Of a stretch of DNA of 64,000 bases, positions 1-47,144 are shown in pieces. The stretch is from contig WION01000151.1 of the NCBI GenBank assembly GCA_015039365.1, positions 1 to 64,000 of the forward strand, written 5' to 3'. The translations under genes were made by a program, and so were the position numbers. The notes beneath the pieces are model-generated. The model was not told where the DNA came from, did not search any database, and saw nothing but the letters and a program-made list of their open reading frames with translations. Source of the DNA: Amanita rubescens (Eukaryota > Basidiomycota > Agaricomycetes > Agaricales > Amanitaceae). Within the stretch, counting starts at the first letter, position 1; each line of letters begins with the position of its first letter.

Positions 1-1478
1 AGGTGATATTCCACAGCCTCGACGTATAAAGGCTGCTGGCGAAGGCGAATTGAGCGGCATATGTCGTATTTGCAACAGAGCTAGGTCTCGGCTATCGCAC
101 TCACGGAAGATCAGCTATGTTAAACGTCAACTCTAGAGATGGAGTGGTATTCCAATCCACGCACAGCTTTCTCCTTCTCTACCGATGTCGTTACTGATCG
201 TGTTTTTGGACGCCTCTTGATTTGGCGGCTTTCATCAGATTGTCCTTGAGCCTTGCCCTCGAGAATAGATGATTTCTGCGCTAATTTTCTGAATGCTCGT
301 GCTCGCTCCATGAAATCTCGAATAACCAATAAATACACTCCTGCTTGGATCTTGGAATAACGTGGATCTCGACAACTATGGACATCGATGAGGTTAGACA
401 AAAACAAAGTGCCAGTTTCACGGTGGCGCACTCCAATACGTTCATACTTGCCGCAATGGAAGACGATAAAAGTGGTATCGTCCATAACGGATCTTGTCCA
501 CGACTGTCAACTTAGTATGGCAGTATAAATACGGAAAACCTTACTTACATGTTTGACGAAGGTTATTATATCGTCTAGGTGAGTGTTAGACTTTTTGACA
601 GTGATTCCCTGGGATGGCGTATTGTTCTGTGATCGTGTGGCCGGCTCATCCTCCCCTTGCTTGAGGGGCTCATCTCGCGCGCTCCACGGCAGAACGGTGC
701 TATCCACGAGCGGCACGAGCGGCAGATCTTGAAGCGGGAAACCAGAAACGGAGTCAGGCCAAGCAGCGACAGACTCTTTGCTACAGATATCGCCCATCTT
801 CTCCAGTACTTCATCGTATTCCGTTGTTGCCGCGTAGAACTGATACGTAACAAGCCGACGAAACCTTGCAGATGCATCGGTAAGGTCCGTACGAGATTCC
901 TCGTTCAAAAATTTCCATACCCCCCTGGGAATGCGCATAGTCCCAGTGTCGCGATCGCGATCGATCTCGATAGAATACTGGTTTGTTATCGCACTACGGC
1001 CTTCGTCGGGTTCCTCGCCAGCCTTATCGAAGCGGAATATGTTTAGCCAGGTATAAGAATGAGGACTTAGACCGAAAGTCGTCCCAACAGGAGAGCAATA
1101 AATGAACGAGACCTCTTCATAGAATCGGGCGACCGAAGAGGCGTCTGTCAGTTTGTTTCCTCGCACGACTCCCCAGTTCCTGCCACGCTTCGTAAATAAC
1201 GCAGACATGTCTTCATCATCCTTGTAATCAATCAGGGGAAGGAGTCCTCCTTCGTCTTTTGTTGTCTGCACCGCGCGATCAATAACCTGAGCGATATCTG
1301 CTGTGAAGGATGGGACGAGAATGACGCGTTTCAAAGACAATCGCGGGTCGATGTGCCGATCAAAGAATGTAAACGGGAGTCGATACGTTGCTGTGTCTTC
1401 GACTTGTTCGACAGCAGGTGGACTGTAGTCGAACAAGTCCTGGAGCTCTCTGCTCCAGGTCTGTTCACGGTCGGACAT
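1..1478 (-). CDS. F1 family kinase-like protein, copy A (runs off the left edge)
   Basis: This is the 5' part of an F1 gene; its kinase domain lies beyond base 1. Exons by GT/AG and by match to copy B are 1478-549, 503-165 and 114 to the edge. The protein starts MSDREQTWSREL, then has the family signature F-D-R-H-x-D-x-R-L. The region aligning with the nuclease motif of the neighbouring F2 family reads T-Y-Q-F-Y (Gln codon at 840-842), so the expected catalytic Glu and Lys are both absent. Exon 2 carries the middle domain (WTRSVMDDTTF, then H-C-G-K-Y-E-R-I-G). Exon 3 starts L-I-F-R-E-C-D as in copy B. A receptor-gene remnant lies just upstream at 1.6-1.8 kb, the same order as at 10-13 kb and 34 kb. 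The biological role is unknown. Confidence 0.7.
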
Positions 1479-1605
1479 GGTCGGGTGTCACGACCGTCAC
1501 GCGTCACGCATACTAGTACAAGCATCACGACCATATACACTGGACTCCGTGATTAAAGTACCACGACTGTCGGCTTCAAGATGAAGTATGTAACATAATC
1601 TTTTG

Positions 1606-7059: not shown

Positions 7060-9550
7060 TCAATCGACTACCATGGGGCCAGAGCTAGCCTGCGAACTCT
7101 CCGCGCTGTCCAAACCGGATGAAGGAGAATGTGCTGGAGAGTACGCTAGCGCGCTGTCCTGCGACTCTTGGTTGAAAAACGTATCGTCGCAATGGATCTC
7201 GCTGAACTCAAGCGGCCGCTTGTTCCATTCGCTTTGAAATTGGGTGACGTGTTCTCCGCTCGAGAACTTGACCACGAGCCACGTCCCAAGTAAGACTTCG
7301 TCCTCTGCTTCCAGTTTTATAGAACAACGCGCTGTTTGAAGCCACGGTTCCTGCGACATCCAATACGTTAACTTATCAAAAGTTATCTTTGCATCTTCAA
7401 CATCGAAGGACACTGGCCCGATTTCAATGGGGTGCAAAGGAGGCGGGCTGGCGTCCTCGACATTTTCCAACAATCCCTTGAGTCTCTTGCGCTCCTTGCG
7501 CCGCTCGCCAGACTTCTTTCTTCGTTTAACCTTAGAAAGATCGGTAAACCAGGCAAGTCCCACTTTTCCGTCAAGTTTATGTCTCAGTTGACTTCCTGGG
7601 CCAACGTCAATATAGATCTTGCTGCGAGAAAGAGCCCCATAAATCAAGCGATTCCTGTGTATAAGCTTTAGGGTTTGCCGAAGAGCAAACCTGTTTTTAT
7701 CATCAATTCCAAACATTACTACAACTTATAAATAACATACTGTTGATGTTGTGTAAGCTTGGAACGCCCCACTGGTTTCCCAACATATTGAAGAAGCAGA
7801 ATAGCATGTACAGCCTTGTTATTATTTATAGCCGCGTCTCCCTTCAACGTGAAGAAGCCATAGGTTTTCGGAATCATGACATCCCGTCCTGGGAGACTGG
7901 ACAAAATCTCGTGTTTGCGATACTCTTTCATAAGTTGTTGAGTGTTTTGCCTTCCATTTGCAACTTTGATGACAACGGGCCACGATGCATAAGAGTGTCC
8001 ATCAGCATACAGCATTCCGACGAGTTCGTTTGAGTCCGTCTTGCCGCTAGTTTCAAGATAAAAGAATTTTTCTTCTTCTGCATCGACGGGTGGATGAATG
8101 CGGTGATATGGCCTATTGCTTTTGTACATGACGTTCCCCGACCCCTTCTTGGTTGACCCTAAGCAAAGTTTCATATATTTATGAACTACATCTTGAAACT
8201 GGGGCCTTGGAGTTCGGATCTATGTAGGACATAAGAGAACAGACATTATATCATAGGAAAATTAACATACTGGATTGAATTTACCGACGTTAAGATCGTA
8301 CGGCGTCATCCACGTATCAGGAAGTATATCCGATCTTCCTCCGAAATCTTCTAGCTGTCGTGCGCGGTTTGTCGCGTCCCGTATTGCTGAGATATATAAT
8401 CCAATGTGGATCTGAAAATACCCAGGACCGCCGGCCGTACCTTGCCCAATACTGTGAGGTTCGACGACGTCGCTAATGTATAAGGTCTGGTTTTGCCTGT
8501 CCCGGAAGAATAACAGTTCGTAATTTCCAGCGTGTAACACGGCATAAGTGGCGTCACACTTAACCATCTCTGCCCATAGCTGTCAAGCAGACGTAAGTCG
8601 ATTGATATAGCATAACAACATAGATAAACAACCTGTTGGATCATATCTCTCCCATGTCCTGTGTACTTCTTACGATCTTTGTCCGACATCGCGTCGTATG
8701 CCTCCTTTGTTTTCCCGTCCCAATCAGATATAATGAGATTGACGGCCGAGGCTATAGCATCAAAACCTCGGGGGTCACCCGTGATGGGCTCGCGACCGAG
8801 CCTTGGACCATGTTCATAAGCACAATATTCGGAGACACAACCCTTCCAAGGGAAGACATCCGCCAAAGTATGCCCAAGTATACAAAGCATGGTGTGATAC
8901 GATCCGCTGGGAAGACTCTTGCATTCAAATGGAATGATGCGCTCAAAGTACTTGGCGGTGATCTTCATATCTTCCAGTATCTGAGAATGTGCCGTCGACA
9001 TGGCCGAGTCGTGCTTGCTGAGATCTATCCTCAAAATGGAGTCTGCGTTTGCATAATTGCTTCTTTTACCCCGGCCAGAATCAGCATTCAGGTGAGCCGA
9101 ATCTGAGGTCGGCATTTCCAAAAACTGCGTTTTCCAGGAAGAAGACGGAAATTGAAGAATAGAGGCAATGGAAGCAATGTTCGAGAACACGTTGTGCTTG
9201 TATGCCGCAACAACGCTGGGTTCGTTGTGGAACCTGTGTTGAGCGTCTTCTTGAATTTTTGCTTCAATGTCTTCCGCCAATTTCCAACCCGATCCATGGG
9301 CAGGCGGGAGAGCCGCTTTCTCCAAGGCGACTTTTGCAGTCATACCCAGTTCCTCCGGAAGATTATGGCAAAACACCGTTTTCTTCAGCAATAGTCCTTT
9401 ACTGAGATGTAGGTCATAAGGAGCGGGTTTTCGTGTCGACTCGGAGCCTTTTCCGAGGCCTGTATAAAATGGTGGAGACAGCCGGAAAATTGCTTCGACA
9501 TTCTGACTAGGATCGGGTCCTTGCCCTTCTCGGGGAATGAACAAAGCCAA
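7060..9550 (-). CDS. F2 family protein: PD...ExK nuclease-like region plus pseudokinase, copy A
   Basis: Exons are about 9550-8633, 8579-8271, 8219-7741 and 7690-7060, joined by introns of 50-53 nt in frame; the start codon was not found and may lie in an upstream exon. The N-terminal region has A-D-S-I-L-R-I-D (Asp codon 9041-9043) and later P-F-E-C-K-S-L (Glu 8924-8926, Lys 8918-8920). This fits the D...ExK core of restriction-endonuclease-fold nucleases. The middle domain starts L-W-A-E-M-V-K. The C-terminal half looks like a kinase N-lobe with a Val-Ile-Lys strand, but the catalytic loop reads L-I-Y-G-A-L-S where active relatives have H-G-D-L-S, and no DFG is seen, so it is a pseudokinase. 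A Ser-rich tail ends the protein. It lies downstream of F1 copy B on the same strand. Nuclease assignment is inference. Confidence 0.65.
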
Positions 9551-10376
9551 GCTACAATGATCATGGGTAACAGCATACCGTCATTTGACGCCGGATTTAC
9601 TATCATGACGTCGGGGTCCATTTCACTTCGCTTGGAAAGGACTCAGACTCACTGCACGAGAATCAGCCCAGAACAACGTGTAAGTTTGAATTCCCTACCG
9701 TTTTTCTTCGAAAATTGAAGTATTTGACGGGATTGAGGTGGAATGGAAACTGAAGCAGGTAGCATCCTTCGCGCAAACCCAACCTTATTATATCTTCATT
9801 CGTAGAGGGCAAAATATCGCTGGTGATGAACAAGAAAGACAGCGCCTTCCAAGTTCGTACGCCGGAACGGCCATGAGTAAGACGGTGAGAGTGCACCCTG
9901 CACTATGCCTTGAATTGGCATAGTTCATTTACAGGAACGATTCAATTGTTGCACCGTGACAGTTCACTTGCCCGATTTGTAAGGTAACTTGACGTCGTCA
10001 AGGAACCTCACCATACTTATATGTACGTTACATGGTTACAATCAAACTCGATCAATCGATTGCGATCGCTTGTGGTGTTTGTGGGCTCCTGTTTTATGTG
10101 TGGAATTCGGCGGGTTGGCGAAAAGGAAATAAAAGCACAAGAGACCTGTGTTCATCTTGTGCTTTTGACTCTCATGCATCTGTACCAGCAAGCACGTGGG
10201 TGGTTAACAATAAATGTATATTGTCTCGGCGACAAAAATACCCACAAAATGTCACTACCAGTGTACAAAGCACGTTGGTATATGGTCTACGTACCGCGTA
10301 GAACCAAATAGAAAAATGAACACATGGAGACAGTGTTACATGGACTTGTTCAAGAGGTACAATTCAATATGAATTA
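9551..10376. other. Spacer between F1-B and F2-A
   Basis: This stretch holds the 3' flank of F1-B and the unresolved 5' end of F2-A. Reading the F2-A frame upstream of 9550 gives an early stop and no in-frame ATG, so the start must lie in an upstream exon that could not be fixed. Nothing else was recognised. Confidence 0.35.
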
Positions 10377-12648
10377 TCAAGGATCTTTCAGGAAATCACT
10401 ATCTGCACGAGAACTTTGCGTCGTAGGGTTGCTTGGAAACTGATTGGGCGGATAATAAGAACCCTGGAGAAGAGAACAGAGGTCATCGAATTCACGTTTC
10501 CGTGAATGCTTTCCTGCGCCCATCTTTGCCATGTCGAAATCGATGATTGTAACTTCCCCCTCGTCGTTGATAAGTAAGTTCATAGGCCGGATATCGTAAT
10601 GCCGAACATCTGCTCTATGTATTTCAGATAGTGCTTGCTTGAATGCTTCTCTGTACATGAGGTATAGATAAAATAATGTAAATGACAATGATCACGTACC
10701 GCTCTTCGCGAGACACAGAAACCTGCTCAACAGATACTTTCCCAGTCCTCTTCAGCTCCCGGTCATGGAGGCTAATGCCAACATCACTCATGATCAACGC
10801 TGACGACCCGTCTCTGACGTCTTCAAACAAGCCAAAAACAATCGCTACACACTCTACCCCCTTTTTAGCCAAGTGCTTGTATACATTGTATTCATGGCGC
10901 AAACGCTCTCTCTGGAAGTCGTGAAAAGCAACCTTAACAATGGCAGGAGAAGACAGTAAGCGTCCGTTTGGTAGGGTCATACGAATAGTCGCCTTGTGAA
11001 CCTGGCCCGTCGCGCCAGAATCAAAATCAGGTTTGAGGAGAACCTCAAAGTATTCGTGGGCTCGGTACTCTTGAGGACGCGGCTCTAACTTCAATTTCCG
11101 TTTTCCGTTATATGTACATGGTGTTCCGGGTGCTATTCCACAACCTTTACGCATAAAAGCTGATGGCGATGGCGAATTGAGTGGCATGTGTCTCATTTGC
11201 AACAATGCTAGGTGTCGCGTATCGCACTCGCGGAAGATCAACTGTGTTAGATGTCATTTCCAAGGATAAAAAGTATTTTAACCCACGCACGAGTTTCTCT
11301 TTCTCTGCCAACGTCGTGACGGATCGCGTTTTTGGACGCTTCTTCGTCTGGCGGTCGTCAGGTTCGGCTTGGGCCTTTCCTTCGGGAGTGAGGGATCCAT
11401 GACCCAATTTTCTGAACACACGCGCTCGCTCCATAGCGTCCCTAATAATCAATAGGTACAACCCAGTCTGGATCTTGCCGTACCCTGGATCTCGACAACT
11501 ATGGACATCAATGAGGTTAGACAGGAACAAGGTGCCCGTTTCACGGTGGCGCACCCCAATACGCTCATATTTACCACAGTGAAAGATGATAAAAGTGCTG
11601 TCATCCATGACGGATCTGGTCCACGCCTGTCATTATTAGTCGAATAAGAAATAATATGATAATATATGCTTACGTGGTTAATAAATGTTGTGACGTCGTC
11701 TACGCTGTCAGTGATCTTCTTGACCATGATCCCTTTAGAATGAGCAGATGAACTATTGTTCTGCGGCGGTTTTGTTAGCGCATTCTTCTCTTGTTCTAAG
11801 GAGACAACGGTTTGCTTCTCCTTAGAGCTATTGCTCCGTTTCGACTCGCGTGGTCCCCACGGCAATATAGTGCTATCCACGAGTGGCGTGAGAGGTAATT
11901 CCTGAGTCGGAAAACCAGAAACATGTTCTGGAATGGAAGGAACGGGTTCTTTTCCACATATCTCGTTCATTTTCTCCAGCAATTCATCGTATTCCGTGGT
12001 CGCCGCGCAGAATTGGTACGTGACCAGTCGGCGAAATCTTGCGAATATCTCGGCAAGGTCCGCACGAGCATCCTCATCGAGGGCATTCCATATCCCCCTT
12101 GGGACCTGCATATTCCCTGTATTATCGTCCCGTCGGATCTCGAGATAGCACTTGTTTGTTGTGGAGCTACGGCCCCCATTGGGTTCTATGCTAGCCCCGT
12201 TGAACCGGAAGATATTTAGCCAGGTATAACAATGGGGATTCAAAGCAAAGGTAGAACCGACAGAAGAGCAATAGAGCACTGAGACCTCTGTATAGAACCG
12301 CGCGACAGATGTAGCGTCCGTAAGTTTGTCTCCCGAATCGCCCCAGCTTCGTCCACTCTTCGAGAAGAACGCCGACCTCTCTTCTCCGTCCTTGTATCTT
12401 ATATCGGGAAGGCACCCCCCTTCATTTTTAGTTTCCAGCACGACGCGATCGATAACCTCGGCGATATCGGCTGTGAACGACGGAACGGAAACGACGCGCC
12501 GCAAAGAAAGTCGCGAATCGAGGTGACGATCAAAAAAGGTAAATGGAAGTCGATAAGGTGTTGAGTCATCTGCCTTCTCTATAGCGGGGGGACTGTAACT
12601 GAACAAATCCTGAAGCTCTCTGGACCAGGTTTGTTCGTGACTGGACAT
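10377..12648 (-). CDS. F1 family kinase-like protein, copy B (complete)
   Basis: ATG at 12648 (MSSHEQTWSREL); exons 12648-11674, 11626-11291, 11241-10700 and 10650-10377; introns of 47-49 nt; predicted 708 aa. The N-terminal region is homologous to the nuclease-like part of F2, but the motif position reads T-Y-Q-F-C (Gln codon 12013-12015), so it should be inactive. The middle domain starts A-W-T-R-S-V-M. The kinase-like C-terminus has a Val-Lys strand (P-A-I-V-K-V-A), a helix-C Glu (R-H-E-Y-N-V-Y), the catalytic loop VRHYDIRPMN and D-F-D in place of DFG, then a very short C-lobe without APE. HxDxxxxN and the metal-binding Asp are kept, so catalysis is possible. The gene lies between a receptor remnant (12.8-13.2 kb) and F2 copy A. 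Confidence 0.75.
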
Positions 12649-12779
12649 GTCGCGCGTCACGCATGTCACGAGAGTATTTTCTCCGTTTTTTTTCTGAAAA
12701 CTGCATATGCTACCTCTGACTAGCTTTTTACCAGTGCCCAAACGTTGACAACGGGTTTGTAGTTAGCACTCTACATCGC

Positions 12780-14618: not shown

Positions 14619-16446
14619 ATGGACCATGGTCCCGGCGCTGGCAGCGGCAACGATACCCTCTCATTACTACTTTCTATGCTCAATAACAAGGAGGTGCGCG
14701 TTATTGCAAAAGTGCGGAACGCACTCTGACGATAGGCCATAGCCTGAATCTTCCATCGCGTCTGTCGTAAACGCAACAACTATCGATCTTCTGTGCAATC
14801 TGTTATACCCTGAAGACTACGTCAACGTTGCCACTCGGATTAGCGAGACCTCAGACGTCCTGAATTTGTTGGATTTTATTCTTCATCTGCTTCGCGATCG
14901 AACAATTCCCAACTTCAACCGGCGGGCAAAACGGTTGATGTTAAAAATTATATCTACAAACCCCGTGATACCACGATCCTTGATTGTGACTGAAGTCGCA
15001 GTACCAGCAAAGCGCAATTACATTGGTGGTGGTGCATACGGGGGTGTTTGCAAGGGCGAATTACGCGGGGAGATCGTTGCGCTAAAAGTATTATACAGAA
15101 CCGGCGACAATGTTGTAAGTCCTTCCCGCCCTTGTTCCGTTCTTATTGTTGACGTTTGTTCTAACAGGCGTTCTGTCGAGAGGCATTGACGTGGGCAACG
15201 CTCAAGCACGAGTTTGTACTGTCATTCCTGGGAATTTATGAACAACAAGAGGAAATGTTCCTTGTCTCGCCTTACATGGAGAACGGCACGCTGGCCCAAT
15301 GGCGGAAGAACGCAAAACCATCTGTTAACGAGACATGGGAACGTGTATGGCTTTTTTTTTTGTTGCTCTTCGTTGATGCTCACCCCCGACAAAGATACTA
15401 GAGGTGGCTCAAGGCATGGAATACATTCATTCAGAAGGTGTTGTTCACGGTGACCTGCGAGGGGTATTCCAACTGAAGCATGATATTTTGAAATGTTGAC
15501 ACCTTTTCAGGACAACGTCCTCTTGGATGCCAATCTCCATGTTCAAATTGCAGATTTCGGATTAACCCGACTCTTGGACGCTACGAATACCCAATCGGGA
15601 GCAAAACATCTCAACTTTTCAGCCCCGGAGTTATTCGGATGCCTCGAGGATGCCGATGACCCCTCAGCTATTGAGCCAGCCAGAACGCAAATGTCAGATG
15701 TCTACTCATTTGGATGTCTTTATTATGAAGTGCGTCATAAAAACATACTGCTACCCTTGCTGATTTGGCCAGATCTATTTTGATAGAATGCCTTTTGCTG
15801 GTAAGCCAGAGGGACAGATCGTGGCCCTTGTTATTCGAGACAAGCGTCCAAATCGACTAGATGAGCCACCTTTGAGTGATGGGGAATGGGAGGTGATTCA
15901 GCAGTGCTGGGTGAGGGAACCAGGGAAACGACCGAGAATGAAAGATGTCATTGAAAGCCTGATTGCTACATCTCGGTCGATGTCTTGCTCATCTTTACTT
16001 TCTTTGATCAACGAGGTACGCGACGTCGCGAAGCGCAAGTGCACTCTATTAACAGGCTTTAGGCCACATCTTCCATGGTGTCTCTCGCAAATATGACAAC
16101 TACTATCAACTGTTTTGACCCATTTCCGAGGGAGACGACGTATCCCCATGTCGCTCCCCACTTGTCTATGCCCGCACCCGGGCCTTCGTTCGAGTCCGGC
16201 AGCAGACGTAGGGTGGGCTCGCTCCTCAACGCAATATGGTTCAATCATCACCCTTCAAAGAGAAAACGGCCAGCAAGCGACGATAGTATTCCTAACAAGT
16301 CGCCTAGGAAGGGCGGGACAGCGGAAGGCGCTAGTGCAAGAAACAACGGTGAAAGAAGGTGCCCGTCAGCATTCATTATCTCGTTTTGCTCACGTCTAAC
16401 CAGTACGACAGGGCTGAACGAGCGTTGTCGCCCTCCGAATCTCTAG
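14619..16446 (+). CDS. TKL-type protein kinase with a degenerate start of a second kinase unit
   Basis: Seven exons with all introns in phase 0: 14619-14693, 14743-15114, 15168-15344, 15395-15463, 15511-15729, 15773-16015, 16063-16446; predicted 512 aa. A Leu-rich N-terminus (S-L-L-L-S-M-L-N) and a helical SVVNATTIDL segment precede the kinase. Motifs seen are a Gly-loop (I-G-G-G-A-Y-G-G-V), VALKVLY, VHGDLRG at the end of exon 4 joined to DNVLLD in exon 5, IADFGLTRL, a S-A-P-E motif and a C-lobe D-V-Y-S-F-G. All core catalytic residues are present, with HGD instead of HRD. Exon 7 begins A-T-S-S-M-V-S-L-A-N, which looks like a decayed copy of the exon-2 start, then becomes a basic tail (K-R-K-R-P). 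It is paralogous to the double kinase at 54.6 kb. The substrate is unknown. Confidence 0.8.
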
Positions 16447-16965: not shown

Positions 16966-18245
16966 TCTTGTGGGATTTCTCAGCCGCTGTTGCTTATACG
17001 AGAGTCAGATGATCTAGAAGCATGTCTATATATCGATTTGGAACTCTCAACCCGGGATGTGACAGGCAGCCTGACATTAATGAATTTCTGATGTAGATGG
17101 ATGAGATCCGTGATCTCCGGTAGAGAAACAATACATTCACATGTGTGAGCATCGCAATATATGTCGGGTGCCTTCTCGTTATCTGGAACTTCTCAATCGA
17201 ATCGGCCAATCGAAAAGTGTTCTTTTAGCAGCGAAAAAATCCCACAGTGAGCGATGTGCTGATTGAAGATGGCCCGTTGCGGGGAAGGACCGCGTAGCTT
17301 GCGTCTGAATCTCCAGATGTTCGAATGAAAAGCTATAAAGCTGCTTCAATCTGAAGGGATCCAACCAACCAACAACCAACCTGACAGTTTGCGCTCTCTA
17401 CTCTAAGCATTGTATGCCAGCTGCTTGTCTTCGATACTGTCCACTCGCTCACCAGAGTCATCACCATTTCTATGTTATTCAGATGCCGAAGGTCAAAGTT
17501 CTCATTGATAGAGACGCGTTAGAAACACTCGTGGGCCGTGATTTCAATCTCTGCCTCACGAGGGACGTAAAAGCTGGTCCAAAAATACTTAAAGGAAATG
17601 TCGTCTTCGCTATGGTTCCTAACAAGAGTCTCGGGCTCGAGGTGAAACTGGAGTGGGAGGACAAGTATCAAGTCTTCGAAACGATGTCGTACCAGGTCAG
17701 TCTGCACCTATTTAGTCATTAATTGCCTCGCTAAGATGTGCATTTATTATGTAGGAGGGCGCCAAAGTCACGTCTGGCACCAAATTTGCCGACATTAAAT
17801 TAGGCCAGAAGGCCACGTTTGATAATCATGGTGACGGCAGAGTCATTGGTGATGTAGACCAGAATAAGCCACTCGGAGTCCAAAATGATTGGAGGGAGGA
17901 TGCCCGCGTGGGGGTCAGGAGCTTCAACCCCATCACTGACACTTACCATTCTCTCTTCCTATCGTCCAAAATTCTGACTGATATGACGAGCGAGCTTACC
18001 CCGATCAAGAAATTCTCCATCTTCTGGCACCAGTATTTGGTAACCGACACCATCATCGACAACGCTGTCTCCGATCCTTTCGTATTTGAAATGAACAGAG
18101 ATGAGATCACAATTAAATATGCGAAGGAGCAGCCGCACTGGTCGTTCGTGTAGTTGATCGCGATGTTGTATTGTTAGTCTACTGTTGAATAGGCCGATGA
18201 TGCATTTGTAAATTGCGGAATTATAACCTAATAGCAATACAAATC
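16966..18245 (+). repeat. 1.3-kb segmental duplication, copy 1 (partner about 30957-32310)
   Basis: The segment starts with gtgggatttctcagccgctg and ends after the short unknown gene at 17483-18153. The same order, including the 5' flank with the repeated aaccaacaaccaacc tract, is found at 30957-32310. The promoter and gene were copied together. Confidence 0.75.
17483..18153 (+). CDS. Short unknown protein H, copy 1
   Basis: Two exons, 17483-17695 and 17755-18153, with a 59-nt intron; predicted 203 aa. It starts MPKVKVLIDRDALETL. Conserved features in all copies are G-N-V-V-F-A-M-V-P, W-E-D-K-Y-Q-V-F at the end of exon 1, and F-W-H-Q-x-L-V-T-D-T and P-H-W near the C-terminus. The protein is rich in predicted beta strands, with no signal peptide, helix bundle or catalytic motif. 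An upstream ATG at 17414 is in frame but is preceded and followed by leader-like sequence kept in copy 2, so 17483 was chosen. Another copy lies next to an aegerolysin gene. The family was not recognised. Confidence 0.65.
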
Positions 18246-20010: not shown

Positions 20011-20011
20011 A

Positions 20012-20561
20012 TGGATCGAGTACACTAACGCTGGCTTTCTCAGAAGGCTCCTTGACTTTCCCGAAAAAAAAAACGTTTAAACCCGCATGCATCACGGATT
20101 TGACATCATACGTCCATTACAACGCGAGAGAGCGCGGTCGCTTTAGTATTGCAACATTGAAAAGTGAAGAACGTGGGTAGACCCGGTGAAGGATTCCTAG
20201 GTTCACAGCCACGTATACTTTAATACAATAGAATGGAATGGTTAGGGAAGGACGTACGTACTTGCCTAAGTTCGACGGTTCTGTTTCAAAGGCGACACGT
20301 TTGTTTGGTGCGACCAAATAATCCCTCCCAGTGATCACAGACTCGGATCTATCACCTCTTGAACCAGGCTGTGAACCACGGTTTTTGAACACATAGCCGT
20401 AAAACCAATATGATGTAACGAGGAAACCGAGTACCGTTCCACTTACGGCCTCGGAACAGCACTTGCCTGATTTATCAGTGTTGTGGTTATTGATGGACGC
20501 ATCAACGGGCATCAAAACATCTCCAGCCCAAGTTCAATGTCAACGTTTCAACTTCCAAGAT
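20012..20561 (+). repeat. Dispersed repeat, copy next to a MITE
   Basis: Shared with 26525-27180 are the block ctaacgctggctttctcaga at its start, the attcctag-ttcacagccacgta block, the gtttgtttggtgcgacca block and the catcaacgggcatcaaaac block. The order is the same. It ends exactly where the MITE at 20562 begins. Copies at 6.4 and 32.4 kb are shorter. Confidence 0.6.
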
Positions 20562-20995
20562 TATACTTGGGCAAACAACTAGGACAATAAAATACCCATG
20601 GACCCACAAACATCCATGCGCTCGTCTGCCTAGGAAGGCAGCTGTCACGGATCTGGGAGAACAATGCTGGACGGCGGACGCCGGCTGTTGCCTCCTTCGC
20701 ATGCTACATGACATCGGTAAAGAAAAACTACGTAAGAAGGGCGACATAGGCGATGGGAGCGAATCTTTAGAATGTGAGCAGGCTTATTTTACGCCGTCAA
20801 AATCTACAAGTCATTTACTGCGCGCGCCTTCACTACGCATCGTATCTATCTCAAAGGACTGTGCGCCTCATAAAACGGTTCATATCTGTCATGATCACGT
20901 CAAATCGCATCATAGAACTATTGCCCGTGCCAGAAGCCTATGCATCTTTGTGGGTCCATGAGTATTTCTGATGTCTAGTTGTTTGTCCAAGTATA
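20562..20995. mobile_element. MITE-like element with about 55-bp terminal inverted repeats
   Basis: The left end TATACTTGGGCAAACAACTA and the right end, read on the other strand TATACTTGGACAAACAACTA, continue as imperfect inverted repeats for about 55 bp through a CATGGACCCACAAA block. The outer TA pairs fit a Tc1/mariner-type TA target. The 434-bp element has no transposase. The left half recurs at 32540-32835 and, inverted, at 39990-40285; the right part recurs at 40505-40626. The interior overlaps the edge of the F2/F1 duplication at about 20.9 kb. Confidence 0.65.
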
Positions 20996-21296
20996 CCTGA
21001 ATAGTATTGCTGTCCAGTGATCGACGGATGCTATCGTGTTACAAGCCAAAATTAATACAATTTTTGATTAATCAAGCACCAGTGATATTTCAAGGGCTGC
21101 CCCAGAGTGGGTTTCTCGTTTTTGATATTCACGGCTGTGTTGAAAAATGACACGCACACACAGTATCCATGGTTTCGCGATTTGCCCTTCACTTCTGAAG
21201 GTGGAACTAGCTACCCCGGTGCTATTGTGCCTAATCGATGCTGCGAGAAGTATAAAACCTATAATTGGATAATTGTCGCTTTTGACGACTTCCAGC

Positions 21297-23883
21297 ATGC
21301 CCCTGACGTGGTTCATCCTAATTCTCATTTTCGGGAGCATTCATCTATTTGTTCAGATACTCCGGTTCATCCCAATTCTCATTTTCGGGAGCATCCGTCT
21401 ATTTGTTCAGACACTCCGGTCTACGATTGGCCATATTCTCGCGACGAGGAAAGGATTCGTTGACGAGAAAAACCCAAGTTCTGATACGTCGACGCCTCGG
21501 ACAAAGAAAATTGCTACTTCTGGTAAATGCGTAGATCGTAAAAGCAAAGCGGCACCGGGTAAATGACTACATGATGTACGCATGAAATCAGCGCTGAATC
21601 ATCTAACAGGAGTGGTTAACAGATACATTGTGTCTGACGATGACCAGGTTTCGACTCCTGAGCCGGATGACCTTGACAACATACAGAAGATTTTTAGGCT
21701 AGGGTTAGACGGACCCTATAAACGTGCAGTTGATCATTCAAAATGCAGTTCAACTCGCGAACCAGGATCCTATGATAGGCACCTTGACATCAATTTGAGG
21801 CCGACGAAAGTCGCCTATTGCTCCAACATATCAGCGCAGCTCGCAGAAGTGGCAAAAAGGCGCTACGAGGAATACAAAGGGAAATTAGGCATGCCTCCTG
21901 AATGCGAAGAAACCAACTTCAATCATGTGCGCAACTTACTTGAGGGCAAGAAAGTTGTCGGATCAGAGGACGCGATCATCGATGATTATGCGAAGACGAT
22001 GGGAGAAGCGATCCTGCCTATAGTTTCAGCACTTGCGTTTGAAACTCCCTCGTGGAAACCGAGGTATATAGAATGGAAGAAGGATCACAAGCAAGACATG
22101 GCTATTCCGGATGCGAGCATACGCATAAATCTCGGTATCCTGCCACCGGAAGACAGCTCGCACGATTGTCCATATACCAAGATAACGAAAAAGCCATCAG
22201 ACCGAAAGAGAAGACAAAGTGCCCTTCTCGACGGTCTTAGATGTTACATTTGTGACAATCCCTTCCCAGAGAAGTTGAACGATGTCGCGGAGTATTTTGC
22301 CGATATCGTACTTTACGAGTTCAAGAGCCTCGCGTCCGGAACTTTTCAACATTTAACTGCATTACTGGAGCAGACTTGTCATGGCGACTTTTGCTGGAAA
22401 GGATGTGACGAGCGTTGTTCGCATGCCAGGCTCAACACCCCGGTGACGGGTCGCCCAACCGGGTTTGATGCGGAGAATCCTGTCATTCGATTGACCGCCA
22501 GTGATTGGGGAAAGACTGACGTTGGACGTTCACTCGGCACATCCCGGCCGCTTGTCATACACCGCAAAAATCACAAGGAATCAGCCAAGCGTATGATACA
22601 ACAGGTGAAAAGCGCATTAATGCAATAGTTGATCGAACTAACTTGATACGTAGATATGGTCTGAAATGGTGAAGCACGATGCAACATTTCTGGTTCTCAA
22701 CAGCGGAAACTTTGAAATTATTGTTGTTCGTGACCGTGGAAACAGGACGCTTTATCTAAGTGACCTCATTGTCACTGCCGATCCCGGCTATTTTCAGATC
22801 CACGTCGGTCTTTTTATTGCTGCAATTCAAGATGCCATAGATCGCGCGACACGACTGAATGCAAGCAAAGTCGCCAATGACCTCCCTTCCTCATGGACAG
22901 GATATGTAAAACATCGTCGCACCAAGGCTCCTGACGTAGAGATAGGCCCAATTGATATTGAAGAAGTACTATCGAACTGTCGAGAACTCTCCCTGTTCCC
23001 CCGGAAAGGTGCCGATGATCCCGTACCCTACAGGCACTGGAACTTGTACGAGCGTAGTCCAAAAGAGCAACTTGAGGAATCCCATCCTCTGATTATACGG
23101 ACTAGAGCTAGCGATGACTGGAACATTTTTGTGGGCAGCGTGGAATTGTCAGGGAAAGCTTTTGAAGATTGTGTTGTCGTCAAGACTGCGCGCGGAAAGT
23201 ATGCCACACGAATACTTTCAGAGGAGTCCTCTGCATATCGCTCACTCAGCGAAGACCCTCAAGAATGTAAAATTGCTCGTATGTATGGTTTTTTCGTGAG
23301 TTCTCTGGACAAAGATGAGCCACACGCTGTCTTGTTATTGGAATATTTGGGAAAGCCTTGGTATCAATGTTCTGGACAATTGTCAAGTGATCAATGGTAC
23401 GAGGAATGCGATTGTTACGGATGAGGCACTTAGACAAGGAACAGGAAAAGCCTGAACAGAACTAAATATTATATGGACAAGCGACATTATGAATACGGGA
23501 AAATAGACGAGAAAAGTGTTGTAATCGCACGTGGTGGAGATGACATCAAGTCAGATGTCTTTTTGGTGGGGTTAAGCAAATGTGTACGTTCTTCGGCCGA
23601 GAAGACTGAAAAATGCCGTCCAAGAAATTGGGGACCATCGATTCATCTCGGTCCTATTACAAACCCCGTGTCGGCCAGTGCAACTCGAGTATTCAAAGAG
23701 GTCACGGCGTGGACAAAATTCCCGCCAACAGCACGCTGCTTGAGTTGGGTGGATAACTTGCCGGATTGGTTGGAGATTGATATCTCTGGGGAGGATGCAG
23801 AGGAATTCGAAGAGTTATGGAATGGGAATCAGAGACCTGCCTATCTAAGAAAGACTGTATGTATGGTTTATAAGGCAGCATGA
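21297..23883 (+). CDS. F2 family protein: PD...ExK nuclease-like region plus pseudokinase, copy B
   Basis: Exons 21297-21558, 21610-22604, 22654-23396, 23439-23883 join in frame; introns of 51, 49 and 42 nt remove all internal stops. The first ATG (21297) is the best visible choice; exon 1 gives two 18-residue hydrophobic repeats and then a basic linker. The nuclease-like region has A-I-P-D-A-S (Asp 22110-22112) and L-Y-E-F-K-S (Glu 22317-22319, Lys 22323-22325), after W-K-P-R-Y-I-E-W. The middle domain starts I-W-S-E-M-V-K. The kinase-like half keeps V-V-V-K-T-A, a helix-C Glu and a hinge L-L-L-E-Y-L, but the loop reads H-Y-E-Y-G-K-I-D and the DFG site V-G-L-S-K, so no catalytic Asp is left. 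A C-terminal domain follows (W-V-D-N-L-P-D-W-L). F1 copy C starts 136 bp downstream. Nuclease activity is inferred only. Confidence 0.7.
21310..21417 (+). repeat. Two tandem 54-bp units in the F2-B first exon
   Basis: Units 21310-21363 and 21364-21417 each start gttcatcc and contain attctcattttcgggagcat. Each adds 18 codons in frame, giving a hydrophobic repeat (I-L-I-F-G-S-I). The duplicated copy at 41 kb has a single, more diverged unit, so the tandem arose after the segmental duplication or was lost there. Confidence 0.8.
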
Positions 23884-24019
23884 TGATTGCTCGGCGCTGC
23901 TAGTTTAAAATTATCGTTCAACGTTTACGTTTATGACTGTAAGCCTCTGTATGCACTTGTTATGACATTTACTAGTTTCCAACTGATGCACTGATGAGTT
24001 ACACGTCTCAAAAAACGTT

Positions 24020-26322
24020 ATGGCACGCCGGAAGGTCTACGAGGAAATAGCCGCTCTCTTCGATTATAACCCCCCTACGACTACACTTTCAGAGGAATCG
24101 GGTATCACCTTCTCATATCCAAATGTATTCTATGACCGGCACCTGGATCCCCGCCTTTGCCTGAAACATATCAAAGCTGCTCCATCCCTGTCTCTCGAAC
24201 TTTCCAAACTTGTCGAGGACGAGCTGATAACTCTGAAGAGCAGGGGTCAACCCCTTCCCTTTCTCAGAAATGAAGGCTGTTGTTTCGTCACGGAGAATAA
24301 CAGAAAAACTTATCCGCCGCGTACGACGATCTGGGATGCTGAATCCGTTGCTCAGTTTTATTCCCGCGCTTCTTACAAGAACTGCGCTCCTGTTGCTTCA
24401 ACTATCGCATTATACCCTTATGGAGAAGCATGGTATAAAATTCTAGATTTTTGCGAAGGCTCCGAACTCGAACGTGGTCAACATCCTGCGATGATCGACA
24501 ATTATATTTTGCAGATCTCCCATCGTCATGAAACGGGAGAGTTGACGACATCTAAGGCAATCTCGTCGTGCCTCAAGGACGATCTTCGCCAAGACATTCG
24601 GGCGATGTCGGACAGATTTAGAACATTGGCCGCCTTCCAGTTTCACGTTCCGTCGATAAAAGCGGAAGATTTATTCAGAGATATGGGTGTGGTCGCAAAA
24701 TGGAGCAGGTTACCCTTGCTACAATGCCCCACTGTTGGTCTTGTCGTGTCACAGAATGCCCTGCCATACCCACTGCCCGACTCTTTAGCAACTATAAAAT
24801 CACTTCCTTGTATCATGGCACCTTGTGCATCGACGCAAGCGGCCCGTCGCAGTACTCGTCTCAGCTCTCGAAGTGAAGGGCGGTCGGAATCGGTTTCAAG
24901 CACAGGGCGGGAGGGCCAGACGAGTCGAACAAAGGTCAAGGCATGGCCTACGTTAAATGTGAAGCCTACCAAAGTTTCGCGCCCCAACTCTCTTCTGTTT
25001 ATCCAACGTGTAGGTACTGAAATTATGAGTATTACACCTTCTCATGATTAACTGCAGGCCTGGACCCGCGCTGTACAGTATGATGCTACGTTGATTGTCT
25101 TCAATTGTGGAAATTACGAACGCATCGGATTTCGACATCGCGATAGTCAGACACTATATCTTTCGGACTTGATAGACGTTTCTGAATGTTTTGAACCTGG
25201 TTATGGTCAGATACAAATTGGTTTATACATGGCAATCTTACGAGATGCGCTTGATCGAATACGTCACCAAGTTGGACTCGAGGCCGAGAGCACAACAACC
25301 AAAGCTAAAAGGAAGCGATCAAATGACGCGGAATACGCAGATGCGAACCGCGAGTCCAAGAGGCCTAGGACTAGGCTGACGACCTCCGGAAAGCAAATGT
25401 TCCAGGAGTCTCCTGAAGATATGCACTCAGTGACTAATATATTCTATGTCTTTTTAGTAAACCTCTAACCTTTGTATTAGCTAGTACTCTGCGAAACGGA
25501 TTGCAGGGATGTGGTACTCCTCTGGTTCAAATATGGGGTGTTCAATTCTCCGGAGCCCGCTGTCCTACATCGCGTTGGCCGTTCATCAGATGGTCAACCA
25601 CGTTTTACTACTAGAAAGGAGCGAAAATACCGTCCTGAGGACTACTTCCGTTTGACGCTAACGTCAGAAGTGGCAGAAGGAGCGACAGGAAAAGTCCACG
25701 ATGCCAAGATTGAGGTTCAGGCAAGCGATTGTCGCGTTTATAGTTGTGAAGGAGTCGTCAAAATTGCACTTGGGAATAAAGAACGAGAGAAGCTACGTCA
25801 TGAATGCGCTGTATATCGACACATGATGGTCAACAAGGTCAATCACGTCGTCTCTGTATATGGCCTTTTTGAAGATGCAGCGAATGAAGCCACCGTTCTC
25901 GCCATGAGCCACGCAGGGACGAGTTTGGCCGAGCAACCGCACTATATAGAACATGGCCAGGTCAGCTTGACCGAAGAACAAAAGTAGGCATGGAACGTAC
26001 TCTTGCATCTTTTTCACACTCACAATTTGTCAGGGAAGCGTTCATAACAGCGATGAGGGAAATACACCAAGCTGGTGTCCGCCATTACGATATTCGTCCC
26101 AACAATTTGATGATGGACGACCAAGGCCGAGCAACCATAATCGACTTTGACATGGCGAAAGTTAAGGCCGGTAAACGATCTCGTCAGCGAGAGTTTGAGC
26201 ATCTCGGTTATCTTCTCGACGAAAGTTATGACCCGCCGAATCAATGGGAAAGTCCCCCAACTTCCCCATCCGCTAGATTCCCACCAGCGGATGACGACAT
26301 CATTTATGGACGGATTTACTAA
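24020..26322 (+). CDS. F1 family kinase-like protein, copy C (complete)
   Basis: Exons 24020-25009, 25058-25429, 25481-25983 and 26034-26322, introns of 48-51 nt at the same places as in copies A, B and D; predicted 717 aa. The N-terminal region starts MARRKVYEEI and has Y-D-R-H-L-D. At the nuclease motif it reads A-F-Q-F-H-V (Gln codon 24638-24640), so Glu and Lys are lost. The middle domain is A-W-T-R-A-V-Q-Y-D-A-T followed by a Lys/Arg-rich nuclear-localisation-like stretch. The kinase-like end has V-V-K-I-A, R-H-E-C-A-V-Y, VRHYDIRPNN (Asp codon 26089-26091) and I-I-D-F-D-M-A-K, then a short C-lobe. Catalysis is plausible although DFG is DFD. Downstream partner of F2-B on the same strand. 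Confidence 0.8.
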
Positions 26323-26524: not shown

Positions 26525-27180
26525 CCATCCATGGATCGAGTGCGCTAACGCTGGCTTTCTCAGAAGGCTCCTTGACTTTCCCAACGCAAAAAAACGTTTA
26601 AACTTGATACTATCAACGTCCATTTCAACGCAAGAGCGCGCGGCACGGTCTCTATTGTGTGATTACCGTTTTGCAACAAGACTTGGTGAAGGAGTGGGAA
26701 CTGAGTATTCCTAGATTCACAGCCACGTATATTTTAGTACAATAAAATGGTTGGGGAAAGACGTACGTACGTACAAGTTCGACTGAGATGTTCTGTTTCA
26801 ACTTCAAGGCATCTGACTCGGAAAGGCAACGCGTTTGTTTGGTGCGACCAAACATTCCCTCCGATTCGATCTATCATCTCAATCAGGCCGTGACTCAACC
26901 GTACATGGTATACCATTTATCTTTTTGAACGCATAGCCATAAAAACAATAACGAGGAAACCTCGAACCGCTCCAAAATGAGTCGGCCTCCTGAACTTGGG
27001 GAATTTCAAATATGTCACGTCAGTGGCACTTTCCGGCTACCACTACTCCAACTCGTAGGTGCCTGATTTATCAGTGTTGTAGTTGATGATGCATCAATGC
27101 ATCAACGGGCATCAAAACGTCACCAACCCAATTTCAAATTTCATTAATGTCAACGTCAACGTTTCAACTTTTACTTCCAA
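26525..27180 (+). repeat. Dispersed repeat, longest copy
   Basis: It is colinear with 20012-20561 and, at its 3' end, with 32380-32540 and 6540-6660 (block gagtcggcctcct, then tatcagtgttgtagtt, then gcatcaacgggcatcaaaac). It is AT-rich in the middle and has no ORF of note. It lies directly after the segmental duplication. The remaining bases to 27465 hold nothing recognisable. Confidence 0.55.
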
Positions 27181-27465: not shown

Positions 27466-28146
27466 CTAGGGAGGAGCTTTCGTCCAATGCGGTTTCTCCT
27501 TGCCATATATGAGCTTAGCCATATTGCGATGGTTGATTTCGAAAACGAAAGGGTCGGCGATAGTGTTCAAGTCGGTTATGGTGTCCGTTACCAACTGCTG
27601 GTGCCAGAAGACGGCGAATTTGTTAGTCGGGGTTAGTTTGACCGTCATGTCAGTGAGAATTTCTGGGGATAGGAAAAGGGAATGGTAGGATTCGTCGGTG
27701 GGGTCGAAGTTCCTGACCCCCACACGTGCGCCTTCCTTCCAGTCATTCCTGACGTGGAGTGGCTGTTTTACGTCCTCTCCACCAGTGACATCGGCTCCAC
27801 CTATAACATCGAATGTGGCCTGCTGGCCCAGTTTAATGTCGGCAGTTTCGGTGCCAGCCGTGACTTTCGAGCCCACCTACATAATGATCACCTTCCGGAT
27901 CGATCGGTGAGCGAATAGGTGGAGACTGACCTTATACGACGTCGTTTCGAAGACTTGGTACTTGTCCTCCCATTGGAGGGTCACGCCACGGCGTAGGTCC
28001 TTGAAGGGAACCATAGCAAAGACAACGTTTCCTTTGTACTCCACATCACCAACCTCCACCATCCTAACTATGCAGAGATTGAATTCACTGCCGATGAGGG
28101 TCTCCAAGGCCTCCTTTTGGATGACGACTTGAACGACGGTCGACAT
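27466..28146 (-). CDS. Short unknown protein H, copy 3
   Basis: Exons 28146-27931 and 27876-27466 with a 54-nt intron at the same codon as in copy 1; predicted 208 aa. It starts MSTVVQVVIQKEALETLIG and keeps the G-N-V-V-F-A-M-V-P, W-E-D-K-Y-Q-V-F and F-W-H-Q motifs. It is more diverged than copies 1 and 2, lies on the opposite strand, and is followed on the same strand side by the aegerolysin gene 570 bp away. An in-frame ATG exists at 28218 but its leader is not conserved. The function is unknown. Confidence 0.65.
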
Positions 28147-30956: not shown

Positions 30957-32310
30957 TGTTTATCTTCTCGTGGGATTTCTCAGCCGCTGTTGCTTATACG
31001 ATGATCTACTATAGAAGCATTTCTATATATCGATTTGGAACTCTCGACCCAGGATGTGAGTCGTGACAGGCTGCCTGACATTAATGAAGCTCTGATGTAG
31101 CCCTAGTACTAGCACTGCCTAGATTGATGAGATCCGTGAGCTCCGGTAGAGAAACAATACATTCAGATATGTGAGCATCGGAGTATGTCGGATATGTGTT
31201 AGGATTCTGGGGTACCTCCTCCTTCTCGTTATCTGGAACTTCTCAATCGAATGGGCCAATCGAAAGTGTTCATTTAGCAGCGAAAAAATCCCACAGTGAG
31301 AGTCCGATATGTCACCTGGCCACAGTGGTATTGGGACAACGTGCAACCCTCACTGGCACGCTTGATGTATCAAGCTTTATGGATTGGACGTTGTGCGGCG
31401 TCTGAATTTCCGGATGATCGAATGAAAAGCTATAAAGCAGCTTCAATCCGAAGAGATCCAACCAACCAACAACCAACCCAACAGTTTGCACTCTCTACTC
31501 TAAGCATTGTATGCCAGCTGCTTGTCTTCGATACTGTCCACTCGCTCACCACCCTTTCTATGTTATCCAGATGACGTCGAAGATCAAAGTTCTCGTTGAC
31601 GGAGACGCGTTAGCAACACTCATGGACAGTGAATTTCAATCTCTGCCTCACGAGGGACGTGAAGGTTGGCACAAAAGTGCTCAAAGGAAATGTCGTCTTC
31701 TCTATGGTTCCTACCAAGAGTCTCGCGCCCGAGGTGGAACTCGAGTGGGAGGACAAGTATCAAGTCTTCGAAACGACGTCGTACAAGGTCAGTCTGCACC
31801 TATTCAGTCATTGATTCCCTTGCTAAGATGTGGATTTATTATGTAGGCGGGCGTCAAAGTCTCGTCTGGCACCAAATTCGTCGACATGAAATTAGGCCAG
31901 AAGGTCACGTTTGACATTCATGGTGCCGGCAAAGCCGTTGGTGAGGGGGACCAGAGTAAGCCACTCGCAGTCCGAAATGATTGGAAGGAGGATGCCCGCG
32001 TGGGGGTCAGGAGCTTCGACCCCATCACCAACACTTACAATGCTCTCTTCCTATCGCCCCAAATTCTGACTGATATGACGAGCGAGCTTACCCCGATCAG
32101 GAAATTCTCCATCTTCTGGCACCAGCATTTGATAACCGACACCATCATCGACGAGACTGTCTCCGATCCTTACGTATTTGAAATGACTGATGATGAGACC
32201 ATAATTAGATATGCGAAGGACAAGCCACACTGGTCGCGCGTGTAGTTGATCGCGGTGTTGTTGTTAGACTACTGAATAGGCCGATGATGTATTTGTAGAT
32301 TGTGAAATTA
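30957..32310 (+). repeat. 1.3-kb segmental duplication, copy 2 (partner 16966-18245)
   Basis: It is colinear with copy 1 from gtgggatttctcagccgctg to the end of the H gene. It differs by small indels, including the frameshift in the H coding region. Confidence 0.75.
31571..32245 (+). pseudogene. Protein H, copy 2, with a one-base frameshift
   Basis: Exon 1 spans 31571-31787 and exon 2 31847-32245. Compared with copy 1, exon 1 has one extra codon and one extra base; the insertion lies at about 31628-31634 (gtgaattt here, gtgattt in copy 1). Before it the frame gives MTSKIKVLVDGDALATL, after it N-L-C-L-T-R-D-V-K-V-G continues in another frame. Exon 2 is fully open and conserved to P-H-W. It is a recent pseudogene unless the base is an assembly error. 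Confidence 0.65.
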
Positions 32311-38710: not shown

Positions 38711-39891
38711 ATGGCGCACCGGAAAGTTTATGAAAAACTAGTCATGCTGATGAACTACAACCCCCCCCCCCCCCTGTCCCTGGATAGAATGTGACAGCCA
38801 GGCTTGCGAGCATGATACGATCGACTTTCGAGTGATGGGCAGCAGAACCGGTTTGATGCTGCAAATCCTATCGTCCAGCTCGAAGCTGCAGATGGGACTA
38901 AACCAGCCGCCCAGTTTCATAGAACGTCTGCCATGCGTATTTTCGAATTGGCTGTCATCTGTATATGGGCTTCGCTGAATTTAGCGCATAGGTATGGTCC
39001 GGGGTGGTTAAGGGCGATGCGGCGTTTCTGGTGCTCAGTTATGGCGGTATCGGCATGGTAGTTGCGCGGGGCCGCGCTGAGAGAATGCTCTATCTGGGCG
39101 GTGCCACTTTTACTACCGAGCCTGGTTATATCGGGATGCTGGTTGGACCGTCTATTGCCTCCGTTCGGAATAAATGTCAGCAACCTGCCTTCGTCTTGGG
39201 CAAATCACACAGGGGATGACCACATCGAGAATGATGAACCGGAGTTGGAGCTTTTGGACTTCAGGCAATGTTAACAGAGTGTCGGGAGCTTCGATTGGTC
39301 CCGAAAAAAAGCAGGGCCTGCAGAAGAGACCTGGAAACTCGTACAAGGGCGTCCAAAACAAGATTCCTATCCGAGCCTGAAAATCAGGATCGAACCCATT
39401 GGCGACGACAAATATCTTTATCGGGTTCGTGAAATGGAAGAAAATGCTCATCGTCAAGGCTGCCCGAGGGGAGCTCGCGCGCGAGTCCTGTATATTCCGT
39501 TCCCTAATGGCCGACCCCGAAAGGTGTAAAATTCCCTTCATGTATGGATTCTTTGTGGATTCATCGAACACCGATGTACCGAGTATGTTGCTTCTGGCGG
39601 TGGAACAAGTTTAAGTGCAAACGCCGACATTCAAACGCAAACTACCCAGCAGATACTTGGCTCGTGGTCAAATTTTCTAGTAGGGGGCAAGTCATCCAAT
39701 TTCAAGAAATATGGATCGATAGGCCGCCTCATCTGGATGAGGTCATATGCGAAGACACGTCTTTCGACCAGAACTCGCGGGAGCGCTCGCAAGCATATTC
39801 TCTGGCATATTCTGGTCTGGACAGCATGGAGGGTTCACAGGCTGAATTTGCCATGGTAGTCGATTGGATGGACGTGTCATATAGATTCTAG
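38711..39891 (+). pseudogene. Chimeric F1/F2 pseudogene
   Basis: It begins with an F1-type start, M-A-H-R-K-V-Y-E-K at 38711, through N-Y-N-P-P, and runs into a 14-base poly-C tract (38761-38774). Directly after it the sequence is F2: R-F-D-A-A-N-P-I-V-Q-L, then the middle domain V-K-G-D-A-A-F-L-V-L-S (39004), then the N-lobe with L-I-V-K-A-A-R-G (39450) and the C-terminal domain D-T-W-L-V-V-K-F-S-S (39650), which matches copy A rather than B or C. Frames shift several times. The nuclease core, the hinge and the catalytic loop are missing. It looks like the product of recombination between an F1 and an F2 gene. Confidence 0.65.
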
Positions 39892-39989: not shown

Positions 39990-40285
39990 GCGCGCGGTAG
40001 AGATTTTGACCGTGTAGTAAAATAAGCCTACTCACATTCTAAAGATTCGCTTCCATCGCCTCCGTCGCCCTCCTTACGCGGTTTTTCTTTGCCGATGTCA
40101 TATAGCATGTGAAAGAGGCAACAGCCGGCGTCCGGCGTCCAGCATTGTTCTCTCATCGGTTTCTAGATCCATGACAGCTGCCCTTTCTGACTTCCAAGGC
40201 GGACGGGCACCGTGACATGGATGTTTGTGGGTCCATGGGTACTTTGTTGTCCTAGTTGTTTGCCCGTGTAGTATAAGTAGCCAAG
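39990..40285 (-). mobile_element. MITE, left half, inverted
   Basis: The reverse complement matches 32540-32835, for example ggcgtccggcgtccagcatt and the outer tagttgtttgcccg end. With the copy at 32540 it flanks 7 kb in inverted orientation. Confidence 0.6.
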
Positions 40286-43522: not shown

Positions 43523-43648
43523 TCAGCGGTGTTTATTATTATGGGCCTCTGTATATGCTTGCTATGACATGGACTAGTTTTGCAACTTCTTTGTCCAAGC
43601 GCTGCACATCTGGGCTTGCAAGACGTCGACGACGGCTCGAAAAACCTT

Positions 43649-46850: not shown

Positions 46851-47144
46851 CTTGACCAAATAGCATATGCGACTGGTAGCTTTCAGAGTTATACCAACGG
46901 CGTGTAGTTCCCATATATTGTCCAAATACACGGTTTACAATAGTCGGATCATTACTACGCTTATTATTGTTAGAGTCTGGCCTCGGATAAAATAAGCAGA
47001 AACGAACTAAATATACAAAGATACCATAACCCCCGCGCCTCACGTATCAGTTACACATGCCAACCGTCAAATCCCTAACATACAGTCCGTGAACATCGTT
47101 GAATGAAAGCGTCGCATAGCAAGTCCGTCCATCCCATGATGCAT

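Follow-up and report, generated by a model that had tools for sequence, protein, structure and literature searches.

A stretch of 64,000 bases in Amanita rubescens, corresponding to positions 1-64000 of the 121,561-base contig C59 (assembly G000; 75.7 Mb, 786 contigs), carries linked genes for two related proteins, which share a layout of putative nuclease half and kinase half and have undergone opposite losses. The stretch is called the window in the following, and the two proteins are termed F1 and F2. The nuclease motif E-x-K is present in all 15 copies of F2, whereas it is found in none of the 12 copies of F1, and the kinase motifs HYDIRPxN and DFD are conserved in every F1 copy (12/12). 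As far as motifs can tell, these opposite losses are beyond chance. By analogy with the SPOK proteins of Podospora, we see an even chance that F2 and F1 form a killer/antidote pair; damage to DNA would come from F2, and the linked F1 would restrain F2 by phosphorylation.

Opposite losses of catalytic motifs in F1 and F2

Spliced gene models were built with our own aligner. The copies compared are alleles and duplicates and hence not independent; they represent eight distinct F2 genes (A, B, C, D, E, F179, F195 and G) and their partners. Within the window, pairs A and B (41227-45954) are located on the plus strand, and pair C and part of the F1 gene of pair D on the minus strand. Homology extends over most of the length of F1, F2 and a third set of related proteins, the solo family (hhalign E-values of 2e-26, 1.8e-39 and 1.8e-71). 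Together with the motif table this bears out an earlier note on this DNA, which had proposed a common layout of F1 and F2 with opposite losses. The D...E-x-K residues that the note had assigned to 22110, 22317 and 22323 in F2 of pair A are found at exactly these positions. It was likewise right that F1 of pair A has Gln in place of the Glu and no Lys (a His is present instead) and retains HYDIRPxN and DFD; loss of E-x-K with retention of the two kinase motifs applies to all twelve F1 copies.

F1 shows the motif set of an active kinase: the glycine-rich loop, the VAIK Lys, the HxD Asp and the DFG-type Asp are present in 12 of 12 copies, and F1 of pair A matches Pkinase with an E-value of 4.2e-9 over 25888-26319. 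The kinase half of F2 lacks this set. Its VAIK Lys is conserved (15/15) and its glycine-rich loop is missing throughout (0/15). The HxD Asp is found in a single copy out of 15 (pair D), the three G copies having an Asp shifted by one residue, and a DFG-type Asp occurs in six copies (pairs C, E and F, as DLS or DLG) and is absent from nine; in F2 of pair C, E-x-K and DLS are retained and the HxD Asp is gone. Both catalytic Asp residues are never combined in one F2 (0/15), and which of them is missing varies. The earlier statement that kinase loop and DFG are destroyed in F2 is thus correct for pair A, and does not hold as a general rule.

A W-x-x-C...C segment is located downstream of the E-x-K Lys in F2 and in most of the solo proteins displayed, and is missing from F1. 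It is a further feature gone together with the nuclease site.

Predicted folds and domain matches

Predicted models place the D before a strand and the E-x-K on the following long strand or at its end, with helices flanking. As modelled, both the order of the strands and the positions of D and E-x-K fit a PD-(D/E)xK core. A Pfam nuclease domain was not matched in the proteins scanned. The C-terminal half has a kinase fold. The kinase piece of F1 scored 18.7 bits against Pkinase_fungal/FunK1 (PF17667), which is under the family cut-off of 24.1, and none of ten further proteins scanned reached this cut-off.

Genome-wide, pieces of PF17667 gave 130 matches, among 107 of 238 candidates scored. In P0010, a solo protein of Piloderma, the kinase loop weakly matched TCAD9 (ternary complex associated domain), with 24.6 bits compared to a cut-off of 40. 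Furthermore, many copies contain basic patches that, by their sequence pattern, resemble those of nuclear signals.

Linkage and allelic sites

Beside each of the 15 F2 copies lies an F1 gene on the same strand, separated by a gap of 129-1340 bp, with F2 first in pairs A and B and F1 first in pairs C to G. This agrees with the earlier description of the two genes as neighbours on one strand, and linkage across eight distinct pairs supports the view of a linked, co-duplicated pair. An F2 gene without F1 was not detected (0/15, in one assembly, best candidates scored). F1 without detected F2 was found on C545 (an open frame by one query, one frameshift by another), on C438 (two frameshifts) and on C319/C331 (stops and frameshifts).

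At least three haplotypes are apparently represented in the assembly, since C59, C770 and C179 carry different pair sets. Contigs C59, C770, C179, C195 and C143 display at least three arrangements of one region with different F1/F2 pairs, pair A being nearly constant on four contigs. The left flank of pair B matches C770 at 97% and C143 at 94% (93% and 90% over its last 1.6 kb), and the right flank matches C770 and C179 at 95% (87% and 86% over its first 1.5 kb). Because a remnant of the 3' end of the pair G F2 gene is preserved together with flanking sequence at 46241-47782, pair B, judged by its surroundings, occupies the site held by pair G on other contigs. Residue identity between the two pairs is 55% for F1 and 46% for F2. 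Pair C (on C59 and C770) adjoins a flank that borders pair E on C179 (87%) and C195 (85%), and pair D adjoins a flank bordering pair F on C195 (96.7%). Read from these flanks, one and the same site can be occupied by very different pairs on different haplotype contigs.

Selection on F1 and F2

Omega was calculated with our own Nei-Gojobori script for 13 comparisons of copies, which are not independent of each other. Values below 1 were obtained in all whole-gene comparisons (0.15-0.62 for F1 and 0.16-0.44 for F2). The kinase half of F1 changes more slowly than its dead nuclease half in 13 of 13 comparisons. In F2 the nuclease half is the slower-changing one, compared to the broken kinase, in 9/13; the exceptions are A-B, E179-E195, E179-F179 and the near-identical G alleles. 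Synonymous distances of the partner genes rise together (Spearman 0.91), and over all eight pairs the protein distances of the partners are correlated (Mantel r 0.95, 81 of 40320 permutations being as high).

Relatives and ancestry

The solo genes of this genome are located elsewhere, on C112, C60, C190, C244, C299 and other contigs. Protein database searches, in which about 8000 candidates sharing most words with the query were scored and the best ones considered, identified the solo family also in other Amanita species, Phlegmacium, Piloderma, Hydnum and Laccaria. Both sites are kept by the three solo genes of A. rubescens included in the motif table (3/3). Among the solo database proteins P0001-P0017 the nuclease Lys is present in 14 of 17 (absent from P0003, P0008 and P0017) and the HxD motif in 16/16 where present; all four catalytic positions are kept in 8 of the 15 evaluable proteins.

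F1-type proteins (P0039-P0062) were found in Amanita phalloides and in nine other genera, namely Lyophyllum, Hypsizygus, Mycena, Sphagnurus, Termitomyces, Tephrocybe, Collybia, Pleurotus and Psilocybe. All 23 of them in which the site aligned (one gap) lack the nuclease Lys, with the Glu left in six, and HxD is conserved in 21 of the 22 in which the region is present. Outside A. rubescens, F2 was represented by two ENA fragments and otherwise not found among the best database candidates scored.

In a tree of 49 proteins all F2 proteins form one clade (100/100), and F1 and its relatives form another (100/99). The solo rows lie in between with weak unity (42/22), and some F1 relatives have long branches; the root of this tree is arbitrary, and the F2 models used for it took the 48-nt intron described below as coding or as a frameshift. 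F1 and F2 likely descend from one nuclease-kinase protein. The simplest reading of the sequences would be a two-function ancestor, followed by two opposite losses.

Gene models and other features of the window

Coordinates of the gene models and of the flanking blocks are compiled in the table. For F2 of pair A the start at 20895 given in the earlier note was not borne out; the gene begins with the ATG at 21582 and ends at 23883. It is not truncated, because both in-frame stops fall inside a 48-nt intron. This intron is also present in the other F2 copies. Its version in pair B is free of stops and was treated as coding sequence by the public model P0034, and the public model P0037 of pair G skips the intron, in agreement with our own model. 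A pseudogene reading of the F2 copies in the window was ruled out, since the stops are located within the intron common to other copies. In total, 12 of the 15 F2 models read through without interruption. The 15 partner F1 models are free of frameshifts, and F1 of pair D contains one stop, in a stretch resembling an unspliced intron.

Table. Positions of F1 and F2 genes, their motifs and flanking blocks, in window coordinates unless contig C770 is named
Feature	Position	Strand	Remarks
F2 pair A	21582-23883	+	exons 21582-22604, 22654-23396, 23445-23883
F2 pair A, nuclease motif	D 22110-22112, E 22317-22319, K 22323-22325	+	
F2 pair A, kinase (predicted dead)		+	YEYGKID at HxD position, VGL at DFG position
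F2 pair A, intron	23397-23444	+	48 nt, GT-AG; contains TGA 23422, TAG 23431
F1 pair A	24020-26322	+	exons 24020-25009, 25058-25429, 25481-25983, 26034-26322
F1 pair A, motifs	24638-24646	+	Q-F-H in E-x-K position: Q 24638, H 24644; kinase K 25760
F1 pair A, kinase catalytic sites	26089, 26143	+	D of HYDIRP 26089; D of DFD 26143
F2 pair B	41227-43522	+	public model P0034; exons 41227-42216, 42266-43002, 43051-43522; upstream first exon(s) outside model
F2 pair B, nuclease motif	D 41749, E 41947, K 41953	+	
F1 pair B	43649-45954	+	exons 43649-44638, 44688-45062, 45118-45620, 45669 to stop near 45954
F2 pair C	7060-9691	-	exons 8633-9519, 8289-8579, 7741-8219, 7060-7690; 9643-9691 doubtful
F1 pair C	10389-12688	-	5' end doubtful
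F1 pair D, 5' part	1-1487	-	cut by contig start; complete F1 on C770 151211-153405
F2 pair D	C770 154219-156637		whole pair on C770
Left flank common with pair G on C770	34356-38769	+	97%; ends inside start of pair G F1
Decayed F2 fragment	38777-39581	+	68% identity to F2 of pair G; adjoins end of shared flank; protein match inside with 3 TGA
Right block, remnant of pair G F2 3' end and flank	46241-47782	+	87% to C770 77158-78677, which starts inside pair G F2

Pair A is bracketed by an old direct repeat (20011-20441 and 26531-26974, 66%), and inverted repeats with 91% identity (20654-20792 and 40017-40155) lie upstream of pairs A and B. Kinase-like genes with HGDLRG loops, which belong to a family distinct from F1 and F2, recur at 14900-15700 and 55100-57200. 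An open frame is repeated at 17541-18060 (plus strand), 27571-27885 (minus strand) and 31633-32152 (plus strand), with 89% identity between two copies; scanning two pieces of it gave no Pfam match. The segment 60001-62000 has a G+C content of 0.578, which is above the rest of the window.

Discussion

F1 and F2 probably have a joint function, as the earlier note had proposed. Compared with its idea of a cooperating defence complex, a killer with its antidote fits better, because in SPOK, the closest parallel described, killing needs the nuclease Lys and resistance the kinase Asp of one protein; F1 and F2 may nevertheless associate physically. According to PMC6660238, K240 (the nuclease Lys) of SPOK3 is required for killing and D667 (the kinase Asp) for resistance; the Asp mutant is toxic, and the Lys mutant protects and does not kill. 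In E. coli and yeast, SPOK1 with a dead kinase is toxic via DNA damage (PMC9972908). Since F2 resembles the kinase-dead and F1 the nuclease-dead state of SPOK, F2 can be read as a nuclease poison and F1 as a kinase antidote.

F2 would then be a toxic nuclease that damages DNA, like the kinase-dead SPOK mutants that kill, and F1 a non-toxic antidote, like the nuclease-dead mutant that only protects. F1 may act on F2 or on the target of F2, by phosphorylation. The pair would be maintained because a nucleus or spore losing F1 is exposed to F2, and spore killing, killing after mating or another conflict are candidate routes by which it could gain. The lone F1 genes, the lack of lone F2 genes and the foreign pairs at the same site fit a killer and its antidote, and none of these observations proves it. 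Only tentatively do we propose a selfish killer locus of a mushroom, in which one SPOK-like protein was split into the poison F2 and the antidote F1 and mutually foreign pairs sit at the same sites on different nuclei; it would be the first killer system of two genes to have arisen from one two-function ancestor, and agarics would have their first spore-killer candidate.

Several observations weigh against a killer/antidote pair. The rows shown for the fold searches were filled with kinases and kinase-domain proteins (RNase L, IRE1 and others), and no nuclease-fold match appeared among them. Inactivity of the F2 kinase is predicted and not certain, because pairs C, E and F keep the DFG-type Asp and pair D the HxD Asp. 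The F1 relatives of nine other genera are without detected F2 (best candidates scored). Partner protein distances within pairs C-F do not agree (Mantel r 0.15, 38 of 120), and strict co-divergence of the partners inside these pairs is unsupported. Some contigs may be paralogous segments instead of alleles. Finally, three of the 15 F2 copies appear interrupted: those of pairs A and F on C195 have one frameshift apiece, and the copy of pair A on C770 carries some 350 bp of inserted sequence, at which the public protein P0038 terminates. Such copies show that loss of F2 with retention of F1 can occur, which the antidote model allows and relaxed selection would allow as well.

The same complementary losses, the shared fold and the tight linkage would also be expected of a heteromeric F1-F2 complex directed against transposons, viruses or other foreign nucleic acid, or against invaders, in which one subunit cuts and the other signals or regulates, and no selfish poison is involved. 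With omega below 1, the dead halves are conserved, which would suit a binding role, and according to PMC12693581 (citing Zhang et al. 2016) the nuclease-kinase architecture is widely distributed and used across many biological conflicts. Nevertheless, an obligate heteromer would not predict the widespread F1 without detected F2 and the lone F1 genes of this genome, and foreign pairs replacing one another at one site are more typical of rival alleles, so that we regard such a complex as rather improbable. Less probable still is a plain division of labour after duplication, with F2 as nuclease and F1 as kinase in ordinary cell roles free of antagonism and linkage left over from tandem duplication. 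Both clades are indeed old and constrained, and the genome contains many related kinases and solo copies; however, linkage holds although the two genes follow each other in opposite order in pairs A/B and in pairs C-G, and copy number and content differ sharply among contigs, unlike in housekeeping genes.

Two further explanations carry little weight. Crinkler (CR)-type effectors would be aimed at the plant partner and not act inside the fungus. A. rubescens is ectomycorrhizal, and the nuclease-kinase fusion is said to have been recognised by Zhang et al. in 2016 as a CR-effector architecture. However, the basic patches of nuclear-signal kind in many copies, a sequence pattern, speak against such effectors, and the opposite losses within linked pairs would be left unexplained; we consider this origin highly improbable. 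Functionless decay of a duplicated pair, each copy degrading randomly, is disfavoured and appears scarcely credible. It could account for the stops and frameshifts of the lone F1 on C319/C331, the F2 relic at 38777-39581 and the three interrupted F2 models, but the same half is retained in every copy, 12 of 15 F2 models and all partner F1 models are without frameshifts, and omega is 0.15-0.62 for F1 and 0.16-0.44 for F2 over the 13 comparisons.

So far, SPOK killing and resistance have been uncoupled by mutations made in the laboratory and by a single resistant allele found in nature. In A. rubescens, the two single-function states seem to exist naturally, as linked genes in a genome that also has the two-function form. 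If F2 and F1 are indeed killer and antidote, the way in which a kinase protects against a nuclease becomes testable with wild-type proteins. Furthermore, a killer-type locus would exist in a dikaryotic fungus with two nuclei per cell, and a group of unannotated agaric kinases would gain a possible antidote role.

Comparison with known systems

The SPOK proteins (Spok1-4 of Podospora and ascomycete homologs) have the same order of parts, with an N-terminal domain, a PD-(D/E)xK-type nuclease (predicted from motif and model in the Amanita proteins) and a kinase, and likewise two separable active sites. The catalytic places are similar (K240 and D667 in SPOK3 compared to K at about 200 and D at about 620 in the solo proteins), and the kinase pieces match Kdo-type kinases, as reported of SPOK. 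This likeness is one of layout and motif places. The complete layout, with both sites intact in one polypeptide, is found by motif in most of the solo proteins evaluated and in neither F1 nor F2. In contrast to SPOK, F1 and F2 divide the two sites between two linked genes, the host is a basidiomycete, and killing is predicted. The SPOK cysteine cluster C-x3-C-x13-C-x5-H-x7-H was found in none of 77 sequences (62 database proteins and 15 F2 models) with the exact or a relaxed pattern, and no Spok-named match was among the best protein-search candidates. F1 and F2 are not filed as SPOK members, because this cluster is missing.

Among the papers listed in searches of the open-licence literature of PubMed Central, none came up that describes a linked pair whose losses complement each other, and none on a Spok toxin-antidote system in basidiomycetes; a search for Agaricomycetes and Spok yielded, judged by title, no paper on Spok genes. 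The terms 'basidiomyc' and 'mushroom' are absent from the review PMC12941216.

F1 resembles the Pkinase_fungal/FunK1 expansions of agaricomycetes in being an expanded fungal kinase, and differs by its score below the cut-off. With the restriction endonuclease (REase)-kinase conflict proteins and Crinkler-type effectors, the solo family shares a nuclease joined to a kinase in one chain. Separate linked genes for killer and protector are present in Neurospora Sk-2 (rfk-1/rsk) and in peel-1/zeel-1, whose proteins are mutually unrelated. F1 and F2 are alike in being separate linked genes, but they differ from both systems as homologs with opposite losses.

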